This document shows positions 24,740-32,620 of a DNA stretch of 64,000 nt, piece by piece. The DNA is taken from the NCBI GenBank assembly GCA_903642265.1, contig CAHJWN010000013.1, forward strand, positions 1 through 64,000. The letters are read 5' to 3'. Under the pieces are notes generated by a model. It made no database searches. It was not told the DNA's origin and saw only the letters and a program-made list of their open reading frames with translations. Each line of letters starts with the position of its first letter. Position 1 is the stretch's first letter. Source of the DNA: Acidobacteriaceae bacterium. Lineage in GTDB: Bacteria; Acidobacteriota; Terriglobia; Terriglobales; Acidobacteriaceae. The position numbers and the translations under genes are program-made.

Positions 24740-26725
24740 ATGGGCCGCATCCGCATACTCTCCGATCAGGTGGCAAACCAGATCGCCGCCGGCGAGGTAG
24801 TCGAGCGCCCTGCTTCGGTTGTGAAGGAACTTCTCGAAAACTCTCTCGACGCCGGTGCTACCCGCATCCGCATCGAGGTCGAAGGCGGCGGCCGTAGACT
24901 CATCCGCATCGTCGACAATGGCCACGGAATGGTCAAGGACGACGCGCTCCTCGCCTTTGAACGCCACGCGACCTCAAAGCTCCGCACATCCGACGACCTG
25001 CTCTCCATCGCCACCCTCGGATTTCGCGGCGAGGCCTTACCTTCCATTGCGTCCGTCTCTCGCCTTATCCTGGAAACCCGTGCGAGCGGTCTAGCCTCGT
25101 CCCATGGAAGCTCTGATGAAGTTGGCACTATCGTAGAAATTGCCGGAGGCAAGATCATCCGGGCCGAAGACGCCGGTCTTCCCATTGGCACTACGATTGA
25201 GATTCGCGACCTCTTCTTCAACACTCCTGCCCGCCGCAAATTCCTCAAGTCCGAACAGACCGAGCTCTCGCATATTGCCGCTCTCGTCACCCACTACGCT
25301 TTGGCCAATCCGACCAAGCACTTTGAACTCCACTCGGCAACACAGGCTCTACTTGTTGCGCCGTCGGTGCGCGATGCTCACGAACGTCTGTTCCAGATCT
25401 TTGGCAACGACACCGCAGCCCTCATGCTTTCAACTGTCGCTGAGATGGACTTTGCCCGCACCGGCCTCCCCGAACCACCACCCTGGAAGCGCGAGATTGG
25501 CTACGAAGCGCCCGCACCCGGCTATCTCCGCGCCACTGGCTTTGTGTCCAAACCCGAGCTACAGAAGCTTAACCGCAACTCCGTTTACGTCTTCGTCAAT
25601 CACCGCCTTATCCGTGACCGCCTTGTCCTCCACGCCCTTGCCGAGGCTTACCGCAACATCATCCCACCCACCTCATTCCCCGTTGTGCTGCTCTTTCTGG
25701 AGATTCCACCTGAGGAAGTTGACGTAAACGTCCACCCTGCCAAGACCGAGGTGCGCTTCCGCCAGCCCAGCTTCGTCCACGACTTCATTCGCGATGCCGT
25801 CCGCACTACCCTGATGGCCGCTCGACCCGCCGCCAGTTTCGCCGCTGCGCTCACCTCCGCCCCGCACGCTTCTTCATCTCTGTTGCTTGACGTAAGCCCG
25901 CTGCCCGGCGGCCCCGCACCACCTGTCTTCCAACCCGGCAATGGCTACGGCTTCGACAACAACGGCAGCCATCCGCAGTCAGAAGCTGACCCTGATGCCG
26001 CAGACGCCGAGCTCTTCACGCTCGCTCCGCCGCTGGTTCCTCAGTCTCCTGGCCGCCTTGCCTTCACCGAGGGCTCGATCGCCGTTGGATATGATGAATC
26101 CCCATCGCCGTCCATCGCAGAAGACGCCCCGCAGGGTCTCAACGCACTCGCCACGCTCAAGCCTCTCGGCCAGCTCCGCGACTCGTTCATCCTTGCCGTA
26201 AACGAAGAAGGTTTGTGGATCGTAGACCAGCACGTCGCCCATGAGCGCGTCCTCTTCGAAAAGATCCTCCGCGACCGCGAAGTGGAGCAGGTCCAGCGCC
26301 AGCGCCTGCTCATGCCGCTGCTCGTCGACCTCCTGCCTGCCCAAATGATTGCCTTCGCCTCCATCGCGGCTGAACTCGACCGAAACGGCTTCGAGGCCGA
26401 GCCCTTCGGCCCCCGCACCCTTGCCATCAAGGCCGCACCCGTAGGCCTCGAAGGCCGCGAACTCGAACGCATGTTGGAAGAAGTCCTCGCCGTTCCCGAG
26501 CGCGAGCAGCAAAGCGAAAATGCTGACACCCGCCGCCGACGCATCGCCGCCTCCATCGCCTGCCACGCCGCCATCAAGGTGAACATGCCGCTTGACCCAG
26601 CCAAGATCGACTGGCTCCTCAAGGAACTAGGTAAAACCGAGCATCCAACCAGCTGCCCTCACGGTCGGCCCATCGCGCTCAAATACACCCACAAAGACAT
26701 TCAGAAAGCTTTTCAGCGAATTTAG
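24740..26725 (+). CDS. mutL: DNA mismatch repair protein MutL (endonuclease type)
   Basis: Couples MutS recognition to strand incision. The 661-residue protein has the GHKL ATPase signatures ENSLDAGAT, IVDNGHGM and GFRGEALPSI in the first 110 residues, then a transducer domain with VDVNVHPAKTEVRF. A Pro/Ala-rich linker (about 350-470) and a C-terminal dimerisation domain follow. The C-terminal metal motif reads DQHVAHERVLFE (residue 496 on), which matches DQHAx2Ex4E except for Ala to Val. CPHGRP near the end supports an intact nuclease site, as expected where MutH is absent. The start ATG matches the family N terminus (GRIRILSDQVANQIAAGEVV). Confidence 0.97.
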   Translation: MGRIRILSDQVANQIAAGEVVERPASVVKELLENSLDAGATRIRIEVEGGGRRLIRIVDNGHGMVKDDALLAFERHATSKLRTSDDLLSIATLGFRGEALPSIASVSRLILETRASGLASSHGSSDEVGTIVEIAGGKIIRAEDAGLPIGTTIEIRDLFFNTPARRKFLKSEQTELSHIAALVTHYALANPTKHFELHSATQALLVAPSVRDAHERLFQIFGNDTAALMLSTVAEMDFARTGLPEPPPWKREIGYEAPAPGYLRATGFVSKPELQKLNRNSVYVFVNHRLIRDRLVLHALAEAYRNIIPPTSFPVVLLFLEIPPEEVDVNVHPAKTEVRFRQPSFVHDFIRDAVRTTLMAARPAASFAAALTSAPHASSSLLLDVSPLPGGPAPPVFQPGNGYGFDNNGSHPQSEADPDAADAELFTLAPPLVPQSPGRLAFTEGSIAVGYDESPSPSIAEDAPQGLNALATLKPLGQLRDSFILAVNEEGLWIVDQHVAHERVLFEKILRDREVEQVQRQRLLMPLLVDLLPAQMIAFASIAAELDRNGFEAEPFGPRTLAIKAAPVGLEGRELERMLEEVLAVPEREQQSENADTRRRRIAASIACHAAIKVNMPLDPAKIDWLLKELGKTEHPTSCPHGRPIALKYTHKDIQKAFQRI

Positions 26726-26850
26726 CGACACCCAGGCCCACCAGATGCATCGCCACAAGTCCGCGTCATCTCAACCGGGAACACGAGCTGGGTGCCCGAT
26801 ATCTCTCTCGAGATGGGGCACCCGCTGCGACGAGCGTCAAACCGGAGCAA

Positions 26851-27357
26851 TCACTTCGCCACGAGCCCTGCAACAACCGCAGCAAATTTACCGAGTATCT
26901 CGTTCCAGCCCTCTACTTGCCCGCTCTCTTTTGCGCTCTCCATCGATTCATTTCCAATCAAGGTGAGCTTCGTCTTGCCGATTCCCAGGTCCTCAAAGAG
27001 CACCACGTCGTGCGCATCAGCTATGGCTTCATGTTTTATTCCATATTGCTCGGGTTCAACCTTGTTGCCCTCCGCGTCGGAAAAATACATAGAGTAGACA
27101 ATCTTCTCGTGCAGAACGATCTCGTGGTATTCACCACCATTCCATAAGTCCTGCCCGTCCGGAGTTCTCATGCAGATGAGAAACTTTCCACCGACGCGAA
27201 AATCCATTTTGCAGACGGGCGTTGTAAAACCCTTCGGCCCCCACCACTGCATTGCGTAACGCGGATCTGTCCAAGCCTTCCAAACCAACTCGCGTGAAGC
27301 ATCAAATATCCGTGTAATAACCATCCGCTCGGTTGCGCTAATCGTGTTTGCTGTCAT
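26851..27357 (-). CDS. SRPBCC/AHSA1-domain protein
   Basis: A 168-residue START-like (AHSA1) domain protein: RMVITRIFDASRELVWKAWT at the start, WWGPKGFTTPVCKMDFRVGG in the middle and a C-terminal amphipathic helix. Such proteins bind hydrophobic ligands in a deep cavity; the ligand here is unknown. Its start lies 20 bp inside the end of the ArsR-type regulator gene, so the two are translationally coupled. The pairing of ArsR regulator plus AHSA1 protein is a recurrent two-gene module in soil bacteria. Confidence 0.88.
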   Translation of the reverse strand: MTANTISATERMVITRIFDASRELVWKAWTDPRYAMQWWGPKGFTTPVCKMDFRVGGKFLICMRTPDGQDLWNGGEYHEIVLHEKIVYSMYFSDAEGNKVEPEQYGIKHEAIADAHDVVLFEDLGIGKTKLTLIGNESMESAKESGQVEGWNEILGKFAAVVAGLVAK

Positions 27358-27691
27358 CTCTCATCTCCGTTTTCTTCATTTCAGTTAGAACCACATCCAA
27401 CTTGTCGAAACGCTCTTCCCAGAATTGGCGATAGTTCATCGCCCATTCGCTGACTGTCTTTATTGCCTCTGGTTTAAGCGTGCACACACTCTCTCGTCCG
27501 CGCTTCGTCTTGGTCACAATCCTTGCCCGCACCAGGTAGGCGACGTGTTTTGAGATCATTTGCTGTGAAACTGCAAATAGTTCCGTCAATCCATGCACGG
27601 AGACCGGACCGTTCGAAAGCCGATCGATCATCGCCCGCCGTGTCGGATCAGCTAAAGCTGCAAAGGTCATATCTAACGTTTCCACAACCAT
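27338..27691 (-). CDS. ArsR-family transcriptional regulator
   Basis: A 117-residue winged-helix repressor. It has DMTFAALADPTRRAMIDRL at the N terminus, the recognition helix in VSQQMISKHVAYLVRARIV and a RGRESVCTL wing. No cysteine-based metal site of the ArsR/SmtB kind is visible, which fits the AHSA1-linked subgroup that senses something other than a metal. It is upstream of and overlapping the AHSA1 gene. A palindrome CAGGAA-TAT-TTCCTG and a TTGACT -35-like hexamer lie just upstream, a plausible autoregulatory operator. Confidence 0.9.
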   Translation of the reverse strand: MVVETLDMTFAALADPTRRAMIDRLSNGPVSVHGLTELFAVSQQMISKHVAYLVRARIVTKTKRGRESVCTLKPEAIKTVSEWAMNYRQFWEERFDKLDVVLTEMKKTEMRDDSKHD

Positions 27692-27726
27692 AGGGTAGTG
27701 GATTATCCTGGGAAGTCAAGAGGCTT

Positions 27727-27741
27727 CAGGAATATTTCCTG
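27727..27741 (-). promoter_or_regulatory. candidate ArsR operator palindrome
   Basis: Perfect 6-bp arms CAGGAA/TTCCTG around TAT, 36-50 bp upstream of the ArsR-family start and immediately upstream of a TTGACT (minus strand, 27714-27719) that could be the -35 element. Its position and symmetry fit a dimeric winged-helix regulator. Function is inferred. Confidence 0.45.
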
Positions 27742-28100
27742 CGATTGGCCTAAATCTGGATCCTGAGACGTGGGTCGGCAGGATGAACGTCTATGCCATA
27801 GGCCTTGACCAGGCGTTGTATCCGGCAGCTCCGGGCTTCTCGAAACATCTTGGTCAAACGCCCGCCAATGCGCTGCAACGCGTGCATGGGCCTATGTGTG
27901 AGTGGCGCTCCGCCTCTGTCACGGATGCGGTATCCTGATAGCAGTGTGCCGCGCGCGTTTTCACCGCAATCCGCGTCCATAATTTCTCTGAGAGAAACGG
28001 CCCCTCATTTGAAAATCTAAGTTGTCCCGAGCGCCGCTTCAGGTCGCGAAGGAATGCTGCAAGCCCGCATAGCGAGTTCATCCAGCAGGAAGGCACTACC
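27742..28100. other. intergenic region with no convincing gene
   Basis: About 360 bp between the divergent ArsR-family gene and the large low-complexity protein gene. A short minus-strand reading (27750-27980, 76 codons, Arg-rich) lacks a ribosome-binding site and resembles nothing I know. The right end holds the SD AGGAAGG (28087-28093) of the next gene. I see no terminator or RNA gene. Confidence 0.4.
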
Positions 28101-30422
28101 TTGAGTTCTCCAGTCAGCCCCATCCCGACGTCAGAGCAGCTATCCGTCGCTCGTCTTGCCCAGTGGCACCAGAACGGCGAAGCCCTTCTCACCTTTGAAA
28201 ATCTTCGCAGCTGGATCAACGTTGCCGGCCTTGTACTCTTCACTCCGCGTTCGGCACAGCTTCCCGCACCCGCACCGTCGTTGGTTGAAGGCGTTCTCGG
28301 CGCGACGGCAACGGAGCCCACACTCGCCGATACAGAACAGGCACGCACACTGCTCGCCCGCCTCATCTCCGAAGGCATCGCCGTTCCACTCAACCTGCTT
28401 GGCACCCCCGGTGAAACGCCCGACTTCGTCGCTACCGCCGCTGTCTTTTCCTACATTTTCACCCTGCGCGGCGACAAGGCATGGAAACAACCTCCGGCCA
28501 CCTCCGGCGCAGTCAAGGTATCTCCGCTCGCTGCTGCGACCCACGAAATCCTTACAAAGCACGCTGCGCTCTCCGCTTACGACCTCGCCACGCAGCTCGG
28601 TAAAGAAGTCACCGAGTCGGCCGTCCTGCGCGCACTCAACGAACTCTGGGCGCACCTTCGCGTTATCCCGGTCAGCCAGCCCGATGGCGCAGCCACCCTA
28701 TGGGAGCTCACCAGCGCGCGATTCACCAAGCACATCAAGGCCGGTGCGAATGCCGGCCAGCCCTCGGCGCTGTCGGCTCTCATCTCCCTCTATCTCGGCT
28801 CGGCGATGCTTGCCAGCGAAGAGGAGATCGAGACCTTTCTCTCACCACTGGCCGCCCGATCGCGCATACGTGACGTCATCCATGCCTTGATGGGTGCCCG
28901 CGAACTCGATACCATGGCCGTCGACGGCAAGACTCTCCTGCACGTCTCGGGCTCCCTGCCAGCATTCGCAACAGCAGATGAGGACGACCTTGCGATCGAT
29001 GTCCACGCCCGGCCCATCGAGAACATCGAAGTCGCCCCGGCGCAACTCGAGGCCACCGACGCCCCCCGCATCAAGAAGTTCGTCGCGAAACCGCGCAAAC
29101 TTGGCACCGGCTTCCCCAGCGACTACGGCCGCAAGTTCAGCGGCGCTCCATTGAATCCCGCCGACCGTGAACGCCGCCCCTTCGCTCGCAGCGGCAAACC
29201 AAGCTTCGGCAAACCTGCCTTCAATAAGCCTGCCTTCAATAAGCCATGGGAGGAAGAGAGATCTGCCCGCCCAGCAGCATCGTCAAGTGAGGAAGCCGCC
29301 CCCACGCAACCTGAAGGGCAGCACATCGAGCGGCCGGCAGGCCCAGCCTTCCCACGCAAGCCTTCATTTGATCGCGGAGCCAGCGAGGGCCGCCCCTCCT
29401 TCGGCAGCAAACCGGCTTTTGGGAGCAAACCAGCCTTTGGCCGCAAGCCCTCCTTCGGTGATCGTCCCAAGTTCGGTGATCGTCCCAGCGGCGGACGTCC
29501 TAGCTTTGGCGCAAAGCCCGCCTTTGGCACCCGGCCATCATTCCGCAGCGACGACTCCCGTCCTCCGCGCCGGGAGTTCACACCGCGCCCGGATGGCGAG
29601 GGCAGTGGCGACGCTCGGCCACCGCGCAAGACCTTCTCCAAACCAGGGACCTTCGGTCGCAAACGGGAAGGCTTCGCTGGCAAGCCAGGCTTTGGCAGCG
29701 ACTCACGTCCGCCTCGCCGCGAATTCAACGATCGCAGCAATTCCGACCGCAGCACTTCCGACCGCAGCAGTTCCGACCGTCCCGCACGCACTTTCGACCG
29801 CAGCGCTCAAGGTTCCGACCGCCCTGCCCGCACCTTCGACCGTTCGGATCGTCCCGCGCGTTCATCGGACGGTCCCGACCGCTCATCGGATCGTCCTGGC
29901 CGCCCCTCCGGAGGCGGATTTGCTCCACGCACACCGGGCTCCTTTAGCGCTCGCCCTCGGACCCAGGGCGGCGGCGGTTTCGGCAGCAAGCCGAGCTTCG
30001 GAGGGAAGCCTTCCTTCGGAAGCAAACCCAGCTACTCCAGAGACCGTGAAAGTGCCGGCGGTTCCAGCGATCGCCCAGCCCGCCCGACCTTTCGTAAGTT
30101 CGACGCGCCGCGCGAGCGCCCGGCAGGCGATCGCCCATCCCGTCCATTTAACAGCGAAGGCAGTTCAGACCGCCCTGCCCGTAAGCCCGGCTTCAGTAGT
30201 GGCGGTGATAAAAAGCCCTTCAGTAAGCCCTCAGGCGGCGGCTTCGGACCTAAGAAGCCGGGCAGCTTCTCCGCCAAGCCCCCAGGCACCTTCGCCAAGT
30301 TTGCTGAAGGAAAAAATCCCTTTCGCAAGCCCGGCAAACCCGGCGGCAAAGGTGGCAGTTTCAAGGGCAAGGCCACCAGCTTCGACAAGCCCACTTACCG
30401 CAAGCGCAAGGATGCCGAGTAG
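28101..30422 (+). CDS. winged-helix-like protein with a long basic FG/RG low-complexity tail
   Basis: A 773-residue protein. The first ~320 residues are ordered and appear to hold two winged-helix-like units (about 150-210 and 225-285; for example AYDLATQLGKEVTESAVLRAL and SRIRDVIHALMGARELDTM). They loosely recall the helical region of AlkZ/YcaQ-type DNA glycosylases, but I cannot assign a family. Residues ~340-773 are disordered: many KPSFG/KPAFG units, DRPAR/SDRSS stretches, GGGFG and RPPRREF motifs, rich in Gly, Ser, Arg, Pro and Phe, with a strongly basic end. Such tails bind RNA and drive phase separation in other proteins. The start is TTG with AGGAAGG 7 nt upstream. It is 3 bp from cmk, probably one operon. 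Confidence 0.75.
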   Translation: MSSPVSPIPTSEQLSVARLAQWHQNGEALLTFENLRSWINVAGLVLFTPRSAQLPAPAPSLVEGVLGATATEPTLADTEQARTLLARLISEGIAVPLNLLGTPGETPDFVATAAVFSYIFTLRGDKAWKQPPATSGAVKVSPLAAATHEILTKHAALSAYDLATQLGKEVTESAVLRALNELWAHLRVIPVSQPDGAATLWELTSARFTKHIKAGANAGQPSALSALISLYLGSAMLASEEEIETFLSPLAARSRIRDVIHALMGARELDTMAVDGKTLLHVSGSLPAFATADEDDLAIDVHARPIENIEVAPAQLEATDAPRIKKFVAKPRKLGTGFPSDYGRKFSGAPLNPADRERRPFARSGKPSFGKPAFNKPAFNKPWEEERSARPAASSSEEAAPTQPEGQHIERPAGPAFPRKPSFDRGASEGRPSFGSKPAFGSKPAFGRKPSFGDRPKFGDRPSGGRPSFGAKPAFGTRPSFRSDDSRPPRREFTPRPDGEGSGDARPPRKTFSKPGTFGRKREGFAGKPGFGSDSRPPRREFNDRSNSDRSTSDRSSSDRPARTFDRSAQGSDRPARTFDRSDRPARSSDGPDRSSDRPGRPSGGGFAPRTPGSFSARPRTQGGGGFGSKPSFGGKPSFGSKPSYSRDRESAGGSSDRPARPTFRKFDAPRERPAGDRPSRPFNSEGSSDRPARKPGFSSGGDKKPFSKPSGGGFGPKKPGSFSAKPPGTFAKFAEGKNPFRKPGKPGGKGGSFKGKATSFDKPTYRKRKDAE

Positions 30423-30425
30423 CCC

Positions 30426-31163
30426 GTGACTGCAACAAACTCCTTTCTGCCCCCCGAACCCGTCGTCGTCCAGCCGCGCCAACGGCCCGTCATCGCAATC
30501 GACGGCCCCGCTGGCGCCGGCAAGAGTACCCTCGCCGCCCATCTCGCGCGAACCTTCGGCTTCCTCAACCTGGAGACTGGAGCAATGTACCGCGCGTTGG
30601 CTTTGAAGGCCATCGAGAACGACTACGGCTTCGACGAGGAAGAATCCCTGCTCGATCTCGCAGCAAAAACGCGCATCAAGCTTGAACCCCAGCACGAGGG
30701 GAACTGCGTCACGTTAGATGGCATGGACGTCTCACGCCGCATTCGCGATAAGGACGTCACCTCCGGCGCCTCGCAGATTTCCGTCCACCCTCGCCTTCGT
30801 GCCTGGATGGTCGACGAGCAGCGCGCTCTCGGCCAGGCGGGCGGCGTCGTCATGGAAGGCCGCGACATTGGTACCGCTGTCTTCCCCGACGCTGAGGTCA
30901 AGATCTTCCTCGACGCTGCACCCGAGGTGCGCGGCAATCGCCGATATCAGCAGAATCCTGGAACTCCCGGGCAGTCTAACGTGACTGAGAGCGCTCTGGT
31001 TGAGGAGATGCGTGAGCGAGACGCACGCGATCGAAATCGCATCGAATCGCCTCTCAAGCCGGCGTCGGATGCTGTGATCCTGGATTCGACGAATCTGAGT
31101 CTTGAACAGGTTCTAGCCGCAGCGGAAGAAATCGTCCGTCAGCATCTACCCACACCAAAGTAA
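30426..31163 (+). CDS. cmk: cytidylate kinase
   Basis: Phosphorylates CMP/dCMP with ATP in the cytoplasm, recycling pyrimidine nucleotides. The 245-residue protein has the P-loop IDGPAGAGKST near residue 26, then LNLETGAMYRALA, the CMP-binding region DVTSGASQISVHPRLR, and EGRDIGTAVFPDAEVKIFLDA. It starts at GTG 30426, 3 nt after the stop of the low-complexity gene, so the two are probably co-transcribed. The length is slightly above the family norm because of an N-terminal Pro-rich lead. Confidence 0.94.
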   Translation: MTATNSFLPPEPVVVQPRQRPVIAIDGPAGAGKSTLAAHLARTFGFLNLETGAMYRALALKAIENDYGFDEEESLLDLAAKTRIKLEPQHEGNCVTLDGMDVSRRIRDKDVTSGASQISVHPRLRAWMVDEQRALGQAGGVVMEGRDIGTAVFPDAEVKIFLDAAPEVRGNRRYQQNPGTPGQSNVTESALVEEMRERDARDRNRIESPLKPASDAVILDSTNLSLEQVLAAAEEIVRQHLPTPK

Positions 31164-31170
31164 CCTTCGA

Positions 31171-31194
31171 CGTTGCACCGAAATCAGTGCAACG
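31171..31194. promoter_or_regulatory. inverted repeat between cmk and the cold-shock gene
   Basis: Perfect 8-bp arms CGTTGCAC (31171-31178) and GTGCAACG (31187-31194) with an 8-nt spacer, 8 bp after the cmk stop and about 155 bp before the cold-shock ATG. No T-run follows, so it is more likely a protein-binding site or RNA hairpin than a terminator. Confidence 0.4.
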
Positions 31195-31348
31195 AAAGAA
31201 TTTAGAGGATTTTCCACACTTTTATTGGCAATGATGCTAACCTTCAGTCATCGTTTGAAACAGATTGGTTTTCTGCAACTGCTGTACGTGTACGAACCCC
31301 GATTTGGATCTTGCGGCAAATTCAACGAGCAATAAGGAAATAACGAAC

Positions 31349-31549
31349 ATGGAACAGGGAACAGTGAAGTGGTTTAACGACGCCAAGGGGTTTGGCTTCA
31401 TCAGCCGTCAGAACGGCGAAGATGTATTCGTACATTATTCGGCGATCAATTCGAACGGATTCAAGAGCCTTCAAGAGGGCCAGGCAGTGCAGTTCAACGT
31501 AGTCAAGGGACCTAAGGGTTGGCAAGCGTCTGACGTTCAGCCTCTCTAG
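31349..31549 (+). CDS. cold-shock protein (CspA family)
   Basis: A 66-residue single-domain OB-fold RNA chaperone. It carries RNP1 (KGFGFI) and RNP2 (VFVHY) and starts [10 protein letters not shown], as the family does. It melts mRNA structure and acts as an anti-terminator. AAGGAA lies 9 nt before the ATG. It has a leader of up to 185 nt after cmk, long enough for the temperature-sensitive folding known for csp mRNAs (inference). A hairpin at 31655-31678 lies downstream. Confidence 0.96.
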
Positions 31550-31654
31550 TCGTTTGCTTGATTCTGGTTCCCGGCTTTCTCTTCATCTGCAAGGGTGTGT
31601 GCATTTGGCTCTGGGCTAGAACAACGGCTGCATTCTGCTTCAAAGGTTTTGCGG

Positions 31655-31678
31655 GAGGGACGGCCTTGGCTGTCCCTC
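31655..31678. terminator. hairpin between convergent csp and a secreted-protein gene
   Basis: A near-perfect palindrome, GAGGGAC-G-GCC then GGC-T-GTCCCTC, with an essentially minimal loop. It lies in the 144-bp gap between two convergent genes and is followed by TCTTCG. The T-run is poor, so termination efficiency is uncertain. Confidence 0.5.
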
Positions 31679-31693
31679 TTCGTCGTTAAGCCA

Positions 31694-32620
31694 TTACTTT
31701 GCGTCGTCCGGCACCGGTGCTTCAATCGGCAGCACAGTCGAACTCGTTTTGAACTTCCTGTAATCCGAGTCTGCCACCGTCAGGCTCCCATTGAATTTGA
31801 AGAAAAGCAGTGCCCTTGCCTCACCATGGCCTTCCACCTGGGCTGGCAGCCATACCTCTCCATTTACACGCTTTTGCTGCAGTTCGAAGTTCGTCCCCTT
31901 CTGGATACTCACAAGCAGCCCTCCGCCAATCCTGAAGTTATCAACGAATCTCCCCTGCAGCTTCGCGATTGCCTTGTCCTGCTCATCCACCCAGATTGTT
32001 CCGGTCATATCGCGGATCACGCCTTCAAAGCTGTTTCGCGTCTTCGCCTTCGGATCGCCGGAGTAGTCCACGACGATCGTGTCCCGGCCCTGCATCACGA
32101 CGCGCCGTGGATTTGTAAAGCTTCCTAGCTCCAGCAGCCTCGATACGGTCACCTCATCATTTCCGCGCGGATCCGTCTGTTTGCCCTTTGCATCTTCCTT
32201 CTCGCGCCGCTCTTTCTCCTTCGTTGCCTCTCTATCTACTCGTTCGGATTCGTTTCTTGCTTCATCCTCAGTTAGGACCCTGCCGTCCTTCTTCACAAGC
32301 TTCCTGACAGGAACACCATCGATCCAGAAGACGTCGTACTCCTTGATCTCGGTCTTCTTGATAGCGCCCTGTGCATCGACCTCTTGCGCAGTCTCGACAG
32401 AGTGGTATATGTAGTCCTTTTGGACCTTCTCTGCCTCTCGCTGCCGCGCCTCGACTTCGTGCATCAGCGATGCAATATCCGGGAGCGGCCTCGTGCTCGT
32501 CTCTGCTTTATCTGGAGCAATGGCAGAAGGTGCAGTGCCTTGCCCCTGGCAGCGAATGCTGACTGCAAGCAGTAGGATCCCCATGCAGACGATCTTCTTG
32601 AAGCCTCTTCCAGCCATCAT
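31694..32620 (-). CDS. exported protein with possible LolA-like fold
   Basis: A 308-residue protein (start at the MMAGRGF position, 32620) with a signal peptide (VCMGILLLAVSIRCQGQG). The mature part has a charged helical segment (about residues 55-190, including ESERVDREATKEKERREKED) and a beta-rich C-terminal half (RRVVMQGRDTIVVDYSG, IRDMTGTIWVDEQDKAIAKL, VNGEVWLPAQVEGHGEA). Alternating long strands with the WVDE..AI pattern recall the outer-membrane lipoprotein-sorting (LolA-like) fold common in this phylum. That is pattern-based. A longer reading to 32773 would place 51 basic residues before the signal peptide and is unlikely. It is divergent from the 2-oxoglutarate dehydrogenase gene. Confidence 0.68.
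   Translation of the reverse strand: MMAGRGFKKIVCMGILLLAVSIRCQGQGTAPSAIAPDKAETSTRPLPDIASLMHEVEARQREAEKVQKDYIYHSVETAQEVDAQGAIKKTEIKEYDVFWIDGVPVRKLVKKDGRVLTEDEARNESERVDREATKEKERREKEDAKGKQTDPRGNDEVTVSRLLELGSFTNPRRVVMQGRDTIVVDYSGDPKAKTRNSFEGVIRDMTGTIWVDEQDKAIAKLQGRFVDNFRIGGGLLVSIQKGTNFELQQKRVNGEVWLPAQVEGHGEARALLFFKFNGSLTVADSDYRKFKTSSTVLPIEAPVPDDAK

Follow-up and report, generated by a model that had tools for sequence, protein, structure and literature searches.

The AlkX/YcaQ and AlkZ DNA glycosylases (HTH_42, PF06224) share a fold of three winged helices. In excerpts of the published accounts, the catalytic residues are given as Q56-x-D58 for AlkX and QxQ for AlkZ (PMC13303869, PMC9040887). The C-terminal domain of the helicase Lhr is an AlkZ-like winged-helix array and, as part of one account states, lacks the glycosylase catalytic motif (PMC9040887). 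For disordered regions on bacterial nucleic-acid-binding proteins, an excerpt of another account describes a precedent in Rho, whose disordered region showed RNA-dependent phase separation in vitro (PMC11326607). We analyzed a gene of soil acidobacteria for a protein of 773 residues, located within a 64,000-nucleotide stretch of an Acidobacteriaceae genome (contig CAHJWN010000013.1), which is called the window. Among the titles and abstract beginnings covered in the literature, none described this protein. An initial annotation of the sequence had proposed a nucleic-acid-binding, possibly phase-separating factor with a long disordered tail. On the best reading of the sequence, the protein belongs to the AlkZ/AlkZ-related group but is non-catalytic, and glycosylase activity is predicted, from the motif, to be absent. 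A long basic tail follows the domain. The coordinates of all features are collected in Table 1.

Sequence searches of solved structures returned nothing (single protein at E up to 5, profile at E up to 10), and the fold was therefore assigned by structure comparison and Pfam. AlphaFold2 was run on residues 1-330 with 48 sequences. The model gave a predicted local distance difference test score (pLDDT) of 87.4 and a predicted template modelling score (pTM) of 0.82, and its confidence was low beyond about residue 291. Foldseek against the PDB gave just three matches at E up to 0.001, which were AlkZ 5uuj (E 1.3e-6) and two DNA-bound AlkX chains of 9zd6 (E 1.8e-6). In VIA-align, the top match was AlkX 9zd6_A with Z 15.2 over 234 residues, where residues 7-285 of the model lay on residues 14-288 of the chain. 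It was followed by the C-terminal domain of Lhr (Z 13.2, 235 residues) and AlkZ (Z 12.0, 234 residues). All rows below these three had Z of 11.1 or less, and ranks 4 to 17 spanned just 61-98 residues each. In Pfam, PF06224, the AlkZ-like DNA glycosylase family, matched residues 132-289 (E 8.6e-10) over profile positions 77-233 of 329. The score was 39.2 bits for the domain and 36.5 bits for the whole protein against a curated cut-off of 25.9, and it was the single family found in the 773 residues at E up to 1. These results indicated that the ordered half, as modelled, is three winged helices of the AlkZ/AlkX kind. The winged-helix fold noticed in the initial annotation was borne out by AlphaFold2, Foldseek, VIA-align and PF06224. 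The number of units had to be corrected from two to three, all of which align, and the statement that the protein belongs to no recognized family did not hold, given the PF06224 score and the alignment with AlkX, Lhr and AlkZ.

The site of the catalytic motif, which is QxD or (Q/H)xQ in the glycosylases, was located by aligning profiles globally with 12 proteins of the AlkX type from the phylum. GLVLFT of the window protein lay on GLLQID, which put L46 and T48 on Q and D. In the hhalign comparison with these 12 proteins, local mode gave a weak match (8.7%, E 0.0038) and global mode gave 53% with E 2e-5. Because AlkX-type proteins are matched weakly by sequence, the site was placed by the global alignment together with the ungapped L35/R36/G43 pattern and the similarity in fold. 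The same-genus set consisted of 41 loci, the window and L046-L085. For the domain alignment, L069 was left out, and the 40 remaining same-genus rows were joined with eight rows of the second family of the same order (f2) to give 48 rows. Neither Q nor H at position 46 was present in any of the 48 rows, and the same was true of D at position 48. All 40 same-genus rows carried L/F/P at position 46 and T/S/A at position 48. Four of the eight f2 rows were gapped at the site, and one f2 row (L040) had P at 46 and Q at 48. The initial annotation had considered that the N-terminal half might match an enzyme with an unrelated role. This was half the case, since the matches are to DNA glycosylases, yet these have a DNA-binding role and the catalytic motif is gone from the window protein.

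The protein also differed from AlkX/YcaQ and AlkZ outside the catalytic site. No C-terminal beta-barrel was seen after the winged helices, where residues 291-330 had a mean pLDDT below 60 and no secondary structure. The AlkX chain past residue 288 had no counterpart in the model of residues 1-330. No barrel beyond residue 330 was predicted in the full-length model, a weak one with a mean pLDDT of 42.9, low even in the domain, and no ordered tail. The domain was slightly negative, with a mean net charge of -4.3 in the genus, and a long basic tail was added. The domains of eight AlkZ-related rows from other families had a net charge of +2 to +15, and those of relatives without a tail, in the family of the window and in f2, were near neutral (-6 to +4). 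So the positive charge of the fold was already lower before the tail arose. That the tail made up for this lower charge is only a guess.

The relation to the AlkZ-related family PF24741 was seen through relatives. The window protein itself had no direct match to PF24741 at E up to 1, and NCBIfam gave no match for it or for six relatives scanned. The nearest profile relatives outside the order were eight proteins that have no tail and come from other families of the class (f4, f5, f7 and f12), with hhalign of the domain alignment at 98.9% and E 3.5e-17. Four of these eight were scanned, and all four matched PF24741 at E 1.4e-27 or better, far above the cut-off. Among three f2 relatives scanned, one was above the cut-off and two were below. 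Compared with this family, the window protein has no direct match, carries a tail and lies in a mutL-cmk gene order that was not seen in the eight other-family loci. A literature search for PF24741 by name returned a single paper, on AlkZ-type glycosylases. Unlike Lhr, the window protein has no superfamily-2 helicase core, since just PF06224 was found and the remainder is tail. Lhr pieces from the genus gave no match with it in a crude profile comparison (hhalign 0.2%). A second PF06224 match was observed on contig 74 of the same genome, in a separate frame of 1449 residues (L174) that we take to be probably Lhr; similar frames occur in relatives.

The tail was low in complexity from about residue 326. 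Tail counts refer to the 40 same-genus loci with an intact tail, because a run of N breaks the tail of L053. The pooled tails contained 25% K/R, 12% D/E and 10% F/Y/W, and Leu, Ile, Val, Met and Cys together made up 3% or less of every one. The 448 residues of the window tail included 65 P, 63 G, 61 S, 60 R, 42 F and 39 K. They held 11 [KR]PxFG, nine DRP and 14 FG units, with SDRSS and GGGFG also present. The aromatic residues were spaced more evenly than in shuffled tails, of which 8 in 1000 were as even. The basic, aromatic-spaced tail with KPSFG/KPAFG, DRPAR, SDRSS and GGGFG units was thus present as first described. In composition, the tail resembles the extended disordered regions, with many charged and aromatic residues, of condensate-forming nucleic-acid-binding proteins. 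Bacteroides Rho, RNase E bodies, SSB and HU, as an excerpt presents them (PMC11326607), likewise have a folded nucleic-acid-binding part and in some cases a long disordered region; their folds differ from that of the window protein. In the same genome, just this gene was found to encode such a tail (repeated at E up to 10), which is weak evidence of uniqueness, as the method may suppress low-complexity matches.

The tail was kept in all 40 intact same-genus loci, with a length of 329-466 residues. Its net charge was +45 to +62, with a mean of 51.4 and a standard deviation (SD) of 3.3. Fourteen spread tails had on average just 44% of residues in common. The positive and negative residue counts co-varied across tails (r 0.95), and the net charge was nearly constant. 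When tails were rebuilt from random blocks of the pooled tails, the mean SD was 8.3-12.6 and never below 5.96 (300 draws at each of five block sizes; at block size 20, it was 5.96 or more in 300/300 draws). In seven distant pairs, which were picked by hand and whose independence on the tree was unchecked, the charge difference was smaller than expected from the changed residues (P 0.02). Shared ancestry weakens both the block and the pair tests. The ratio of nonsynonymous to synonymous substitution rates (dN/dS) was 0.10-0.20 in the tail compared with 0.07-0.13 in the domain in 10/10 pairs, some of which share a sequence or have dS above 1. The tail is clearly under coding selection.

Alignment indicated that the tail is more than composition alone. 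It holds conserved short motifs that the initial annotation did not mention (Table 1). In the aligned set of 39 same-genus proteins, from which L053 and L069 were left out, P382, W383, F734, P740 and P747 were also invariant. Sixty-one genomes were each searched with the PW and C-terminal motifs, and the matches under E 0.03 fell in the frame of this gene, apart from two (G009 and G026). These two lay in short frames near contig starts of fragmented assemblies and are probably cut gene copies. The C-terminal query missed diverged copies in the window's own genome and in G003, G005, G030 and G036, and absence elsewhere in that search is weak. Outside the genus, a motif of the [FY]x[KR]PW type was found in three further genera, g34 (3/3 loci), g36 (1/2) and g41, and not in most other tailed genera.

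The distribution of the gene was examined among relatives. In 100 genomes including its own, 71 matched: its own, 56 of 59 of the same genus, all 14 of f2 and none of 26 others. Two of the three same-genus misses showed traces of the gene, a PF06224 frame of 723 residues in G004 and the C-terminal motif in G026. A profile search matched 90 of 299 genomes of the class. The named relatives included Granulicella and Edaphobacter strains (among 29 loci), and the best was Granulicella aggregans at 90%. Other genera of the window's family contributed 32 loci, of which 13 had tails of 349-538 residues, five had tails of 118-271 residues and 14 had 38 residues or fewer past the domain. The f2 relatives were tail-less. 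Loss of the tail in close relatives, which the initial annotation had regarded as a point against its proposal, was not found within the genus, but the 14 loci of sister genera are without it. In the other genera, the net tail charge was positive at each of the 18 loci with a tail (+17 to +77). The tails of genera g30 and g42 (L117, L156, L130 and L137; 219-271 residues, +17 to +38) were Ser/Ala/Arg-rich and basic, yet nearly without aromatic residues. Therefore, positive charge and not the FG pattern is common to the tailed members.

To follow the history of the tail, a tree was built from 62 rows of the domain by a quick method. A clade of 31 tailed rows had a support of 100 in the Shimodaira-Hasegawa-like approximate likelihood ratio test (SH-aLRT). 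Its sister clade, with a support of 99, held 15 rows, 14 of which were tail-less. The exception was L118 (genome G101, genus g31), with a 456-residue tail of net charge +60 that contained FG units. By eye, the L118 domain resembled the tail-less clade. Forcing all 32 tailed rows together was rejected by the approximately unbiased (AU) test (p 0.007), for which the clade was named after the tree had been seen; L118 is a long branch from the sole g31 genome included. These results suggested a second, convergent gain of the tail in g31. The tree also suggested that the sister genera without a tail never had one.

The gene order supported the initial annotation in its tight linkage of the gene to cmk, which begins 3 nucleotides after the stop codon, and in its downstream cold-shock gene (csp, from 31349). 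Both cmk and csp were downstream in 41/41 same-genus loci. mutL was upstream on the same strand in 36/41, and the other five showed no mutL in the stretch fetched. In many relatives, mutL was observed just 100-600 bp upstream of the gene. In the other genera of the family, mutL was upstream on the same strand in 30/32 loci and cmk downstream in 30/32, in tailed and tail-less loci alike. In f2, mutL was nearby in 8/15 loci and cmk in 0/15 (stretches of 5-9 kb, some ending with the contig). Some f2 loci had the order aspS-mutL-gene with ends adjoining or overlapping, where the first gene is presumably aspS from its sequence. In the eight loci of other families, neither mutL nor cmk was found beside the gene. 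Outside the genus, csp was found downstream on the same strand just in g34, and one f2 locus carried csp on the opposite strand. Since mutL, and not cmk, neighbours the gene in both f2 and the window's family, the link common to the two families of the order is mutL. A fusion of mutL with the gene was considered in genus g43 (L131 and L144) and rejected. The long shared frame was without real MutL similarity upstream of the domain, and the MutL matches were on the same strand in another frame, which meant that the two genes merely abut or overlap.

Based on these results, we tentatively favour an AlkZ-related protein without catalytic activity. Its cationic tail would tether the protein to nucleic acid, probably DNA, or cluster it there, and the role would be an accessory one in repair or in the nucleoid. 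The nucleic-acid binding proposed by the initial annotation is plausible, and the RNA binding and phase separation that it added are possible. A DNA role was preferred over an RNA role because the solved relatives of the fold act on DNA and the shared neighbour is mutL. The slightly acidic winged-helix part would recognize a DNA structure or a partner through shape-specific DNA or protein contacts. The multivalent K/R/F-rich tail would give strong, sequence-independent affinity for nucleic acid. The protein might thereby coat, bridge or cluster on DNA. It would most likely act beside MutL in an accessory role in repair or in the nucleoid, and the conserved Trp and FxKF motifs could be docking sites for fixed partners. 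Several points weigh on the other side. The domain is mildly acidic, which makes it less likely to bind DNA strongly by itself, and the near-neutral tail-less relatives work without strong positive charge. Gene order alone is no demonstration of joint work with MutL; two opposite-strand genes part mutL from the gene in the window, and 7/15 f2 loci showed no mutL in the stretch fetched. The constancy of charge comes partly from shared ancestry, and the test on the seven hand-picked pairs was modest. Tails of such composition are found on RNA-binding proteins too.

An RNA-binding, possibly condensate-forming factor is a possible though rather less probable account. The tail would act on RNA as in the long-disordered Rho, and the winged helices would act on structured RNA or on a partner from the ribosome or RNA decay. 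The K/R and aromatic content of the tail, its richness in G and P, and the constant presence of cmk and csp downstream are consistent with this, as is the behaviour of the Rho disordered region in the excerpt cited above (PMC11326607). However, the folds matched along the full length of the domain, three in all, belong to DNA glycosylases and a helicase domain, and the link in f2 is mutL and not cmk. The csp gene is also separated from cmk by about 185 bp, and its downstream position on the same strand was, outside the genus, confined to g34.

The favoured DNA reading can be extended to a counterpart of linker histone reached by another route, which we regard as doubtful. A glycosylase fold without its active site would have lost its net positive charge and gained, apparently twice, a long tail whose charge stays close to +50. 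Such a protein might compact or bridge the chromosome, or concentrate repair factors such as MutL.

It is unlikely that the protein is mainly a docking scaffold, in which short motifs (RIxKF, ERRPF, PWEEE, FRKFDAPR and FxKF...PF) bind fixed protein partners. The basic spacer would then be a flexible tether with a general affinity for polyanions such as nucleic acid or polyphosphate. The motifs were invariant or nearly so and the spacer turns over, and the two-motif searches of the 61 genomes led back to this gene's frame except for the two short frames. However, the motifs were just partly kept outside the genus, where the net charge was positive in every tailed locus.

We consider it very improbable that the protein is an active DNA glycosylase whose catalytic motif is altered. 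The fold and the Pfam family are those of AlkZ/AlkX, and an excerpt reports motif variants in Streptomyces (PMC9040887), but the residues at positions 46 and 48 in the 40 same-genus rows, and the lack of Q/H or D there in all 48 rows, argue against it. Neutral repeat drift on a dispensable C-terminus hardly deserves credence, for although short DNA repeats and frequent indels occur in the tail and 14 loci of sister genera do without it, the low dN/dS in all ten pairs, the length and charge kept in 40/40 loci, the invariant motifs and the second gain speak against it.

The start of the gene at TTG was well supported by the upstream AGGAAGG and the aligned TTG. AGGAAGG or AGGAAAGG occurred in the short stretch upstream of the gene in 38/41 same-genus loci, and TTG was at the aligned start position in 33/41. 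Much of the genus kept both the weak TTG start and the strong Shine-Dalgarno sequence AGGAAGG (28087-28103), and the long retention of the weak start may point to translational control of the gene. At 28049-28059, about 50 nucleotides 5' of the start, AAGGAATGCTG was observed, and a loose pattern of it recurred in 16/41 loci. It may be a promoter or leader element. Rfam gave no match within 26700-31700, and no sigma-70-like promoter was found within 27650-31600. Between mutL and the gene in the window, two minus-strand genes, AHSA1-like and ArsR-like, occupied 26851-27691.

Table 1. Positions of the gene, its domain, its tail motifs and its neighbours in the window
Feature	Position	Strand	Basis or remark
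mutL	24740..26725	+	upstream partner in conserved gene order; Pfam MutL_C, DNA_mis_repair
Shine-Dalgarno-like AGGAAGG	28087..28093	+	ends 7 nucleotides before TTG start; read in sequence
Gene, predicted AlkZ-type three-winged-helix domain and basic disordered tail, 773 residues	28101..30422	+	TTG start, TAG stop
Predicted domain of three tandem winged helices, residues 7-285	28119..28955	+	AlphaFold2, VIA-align, Pfam
L46-F47-T48, putative place of AlkX Q56-x-D58	28236..28244	+	global hhalign alignment
Tail start RIKKFVAKPRK, residues 323-333	29067..29099	+	I324, K326, F327 invariant in 39 same-genus sequences
Basic, aromatic-spaced disordered tail, residues 326-773	29076..30419	+	composition, charge, dN/dS; no notable helix or strand predicted (weak model)
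ERRPF motif, residues 357-361	29169..29183	+	R358, R359, P360, F361 invariant in 39 same-genus sequences
Trp motif FNKPWEEER, residues 379-387	29235..29261	+	PW in 41/41 same-genus tails
FRKFDAPR motif, residues 664-671	30090..30113	+	F667 invariant; most neighbours at 70% or more
C-terminal motif TFAKFAEGKNPF (TFDKFKGNKKPF in many relatives)	30288..30323	+	FxKF...P[FW] in 39/40 intact same-genus tails
cmk, cytidylate kinase	30426..31163	+	3 nucleotides past the gene's stop; PF02224 Cytidylate_kin, E 3.4e-68

One ortholog in mostly the same gene order thus occurs in three tail states. It is tail-less, or has a basic tail of 118-271 residues that is nearly FG-free, or has a tail of 330-540 residues that is mostly FG- or RP-rich, with one apparently independent gain. 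This constitutes a natural evolutionary experiment on the function of disordered tails. A role for the AlkZ-related family PF24741 would be suggested if the tail converts a glycosylase fold that lacks its motif into a protein that binds the chromosome or clusters repair.

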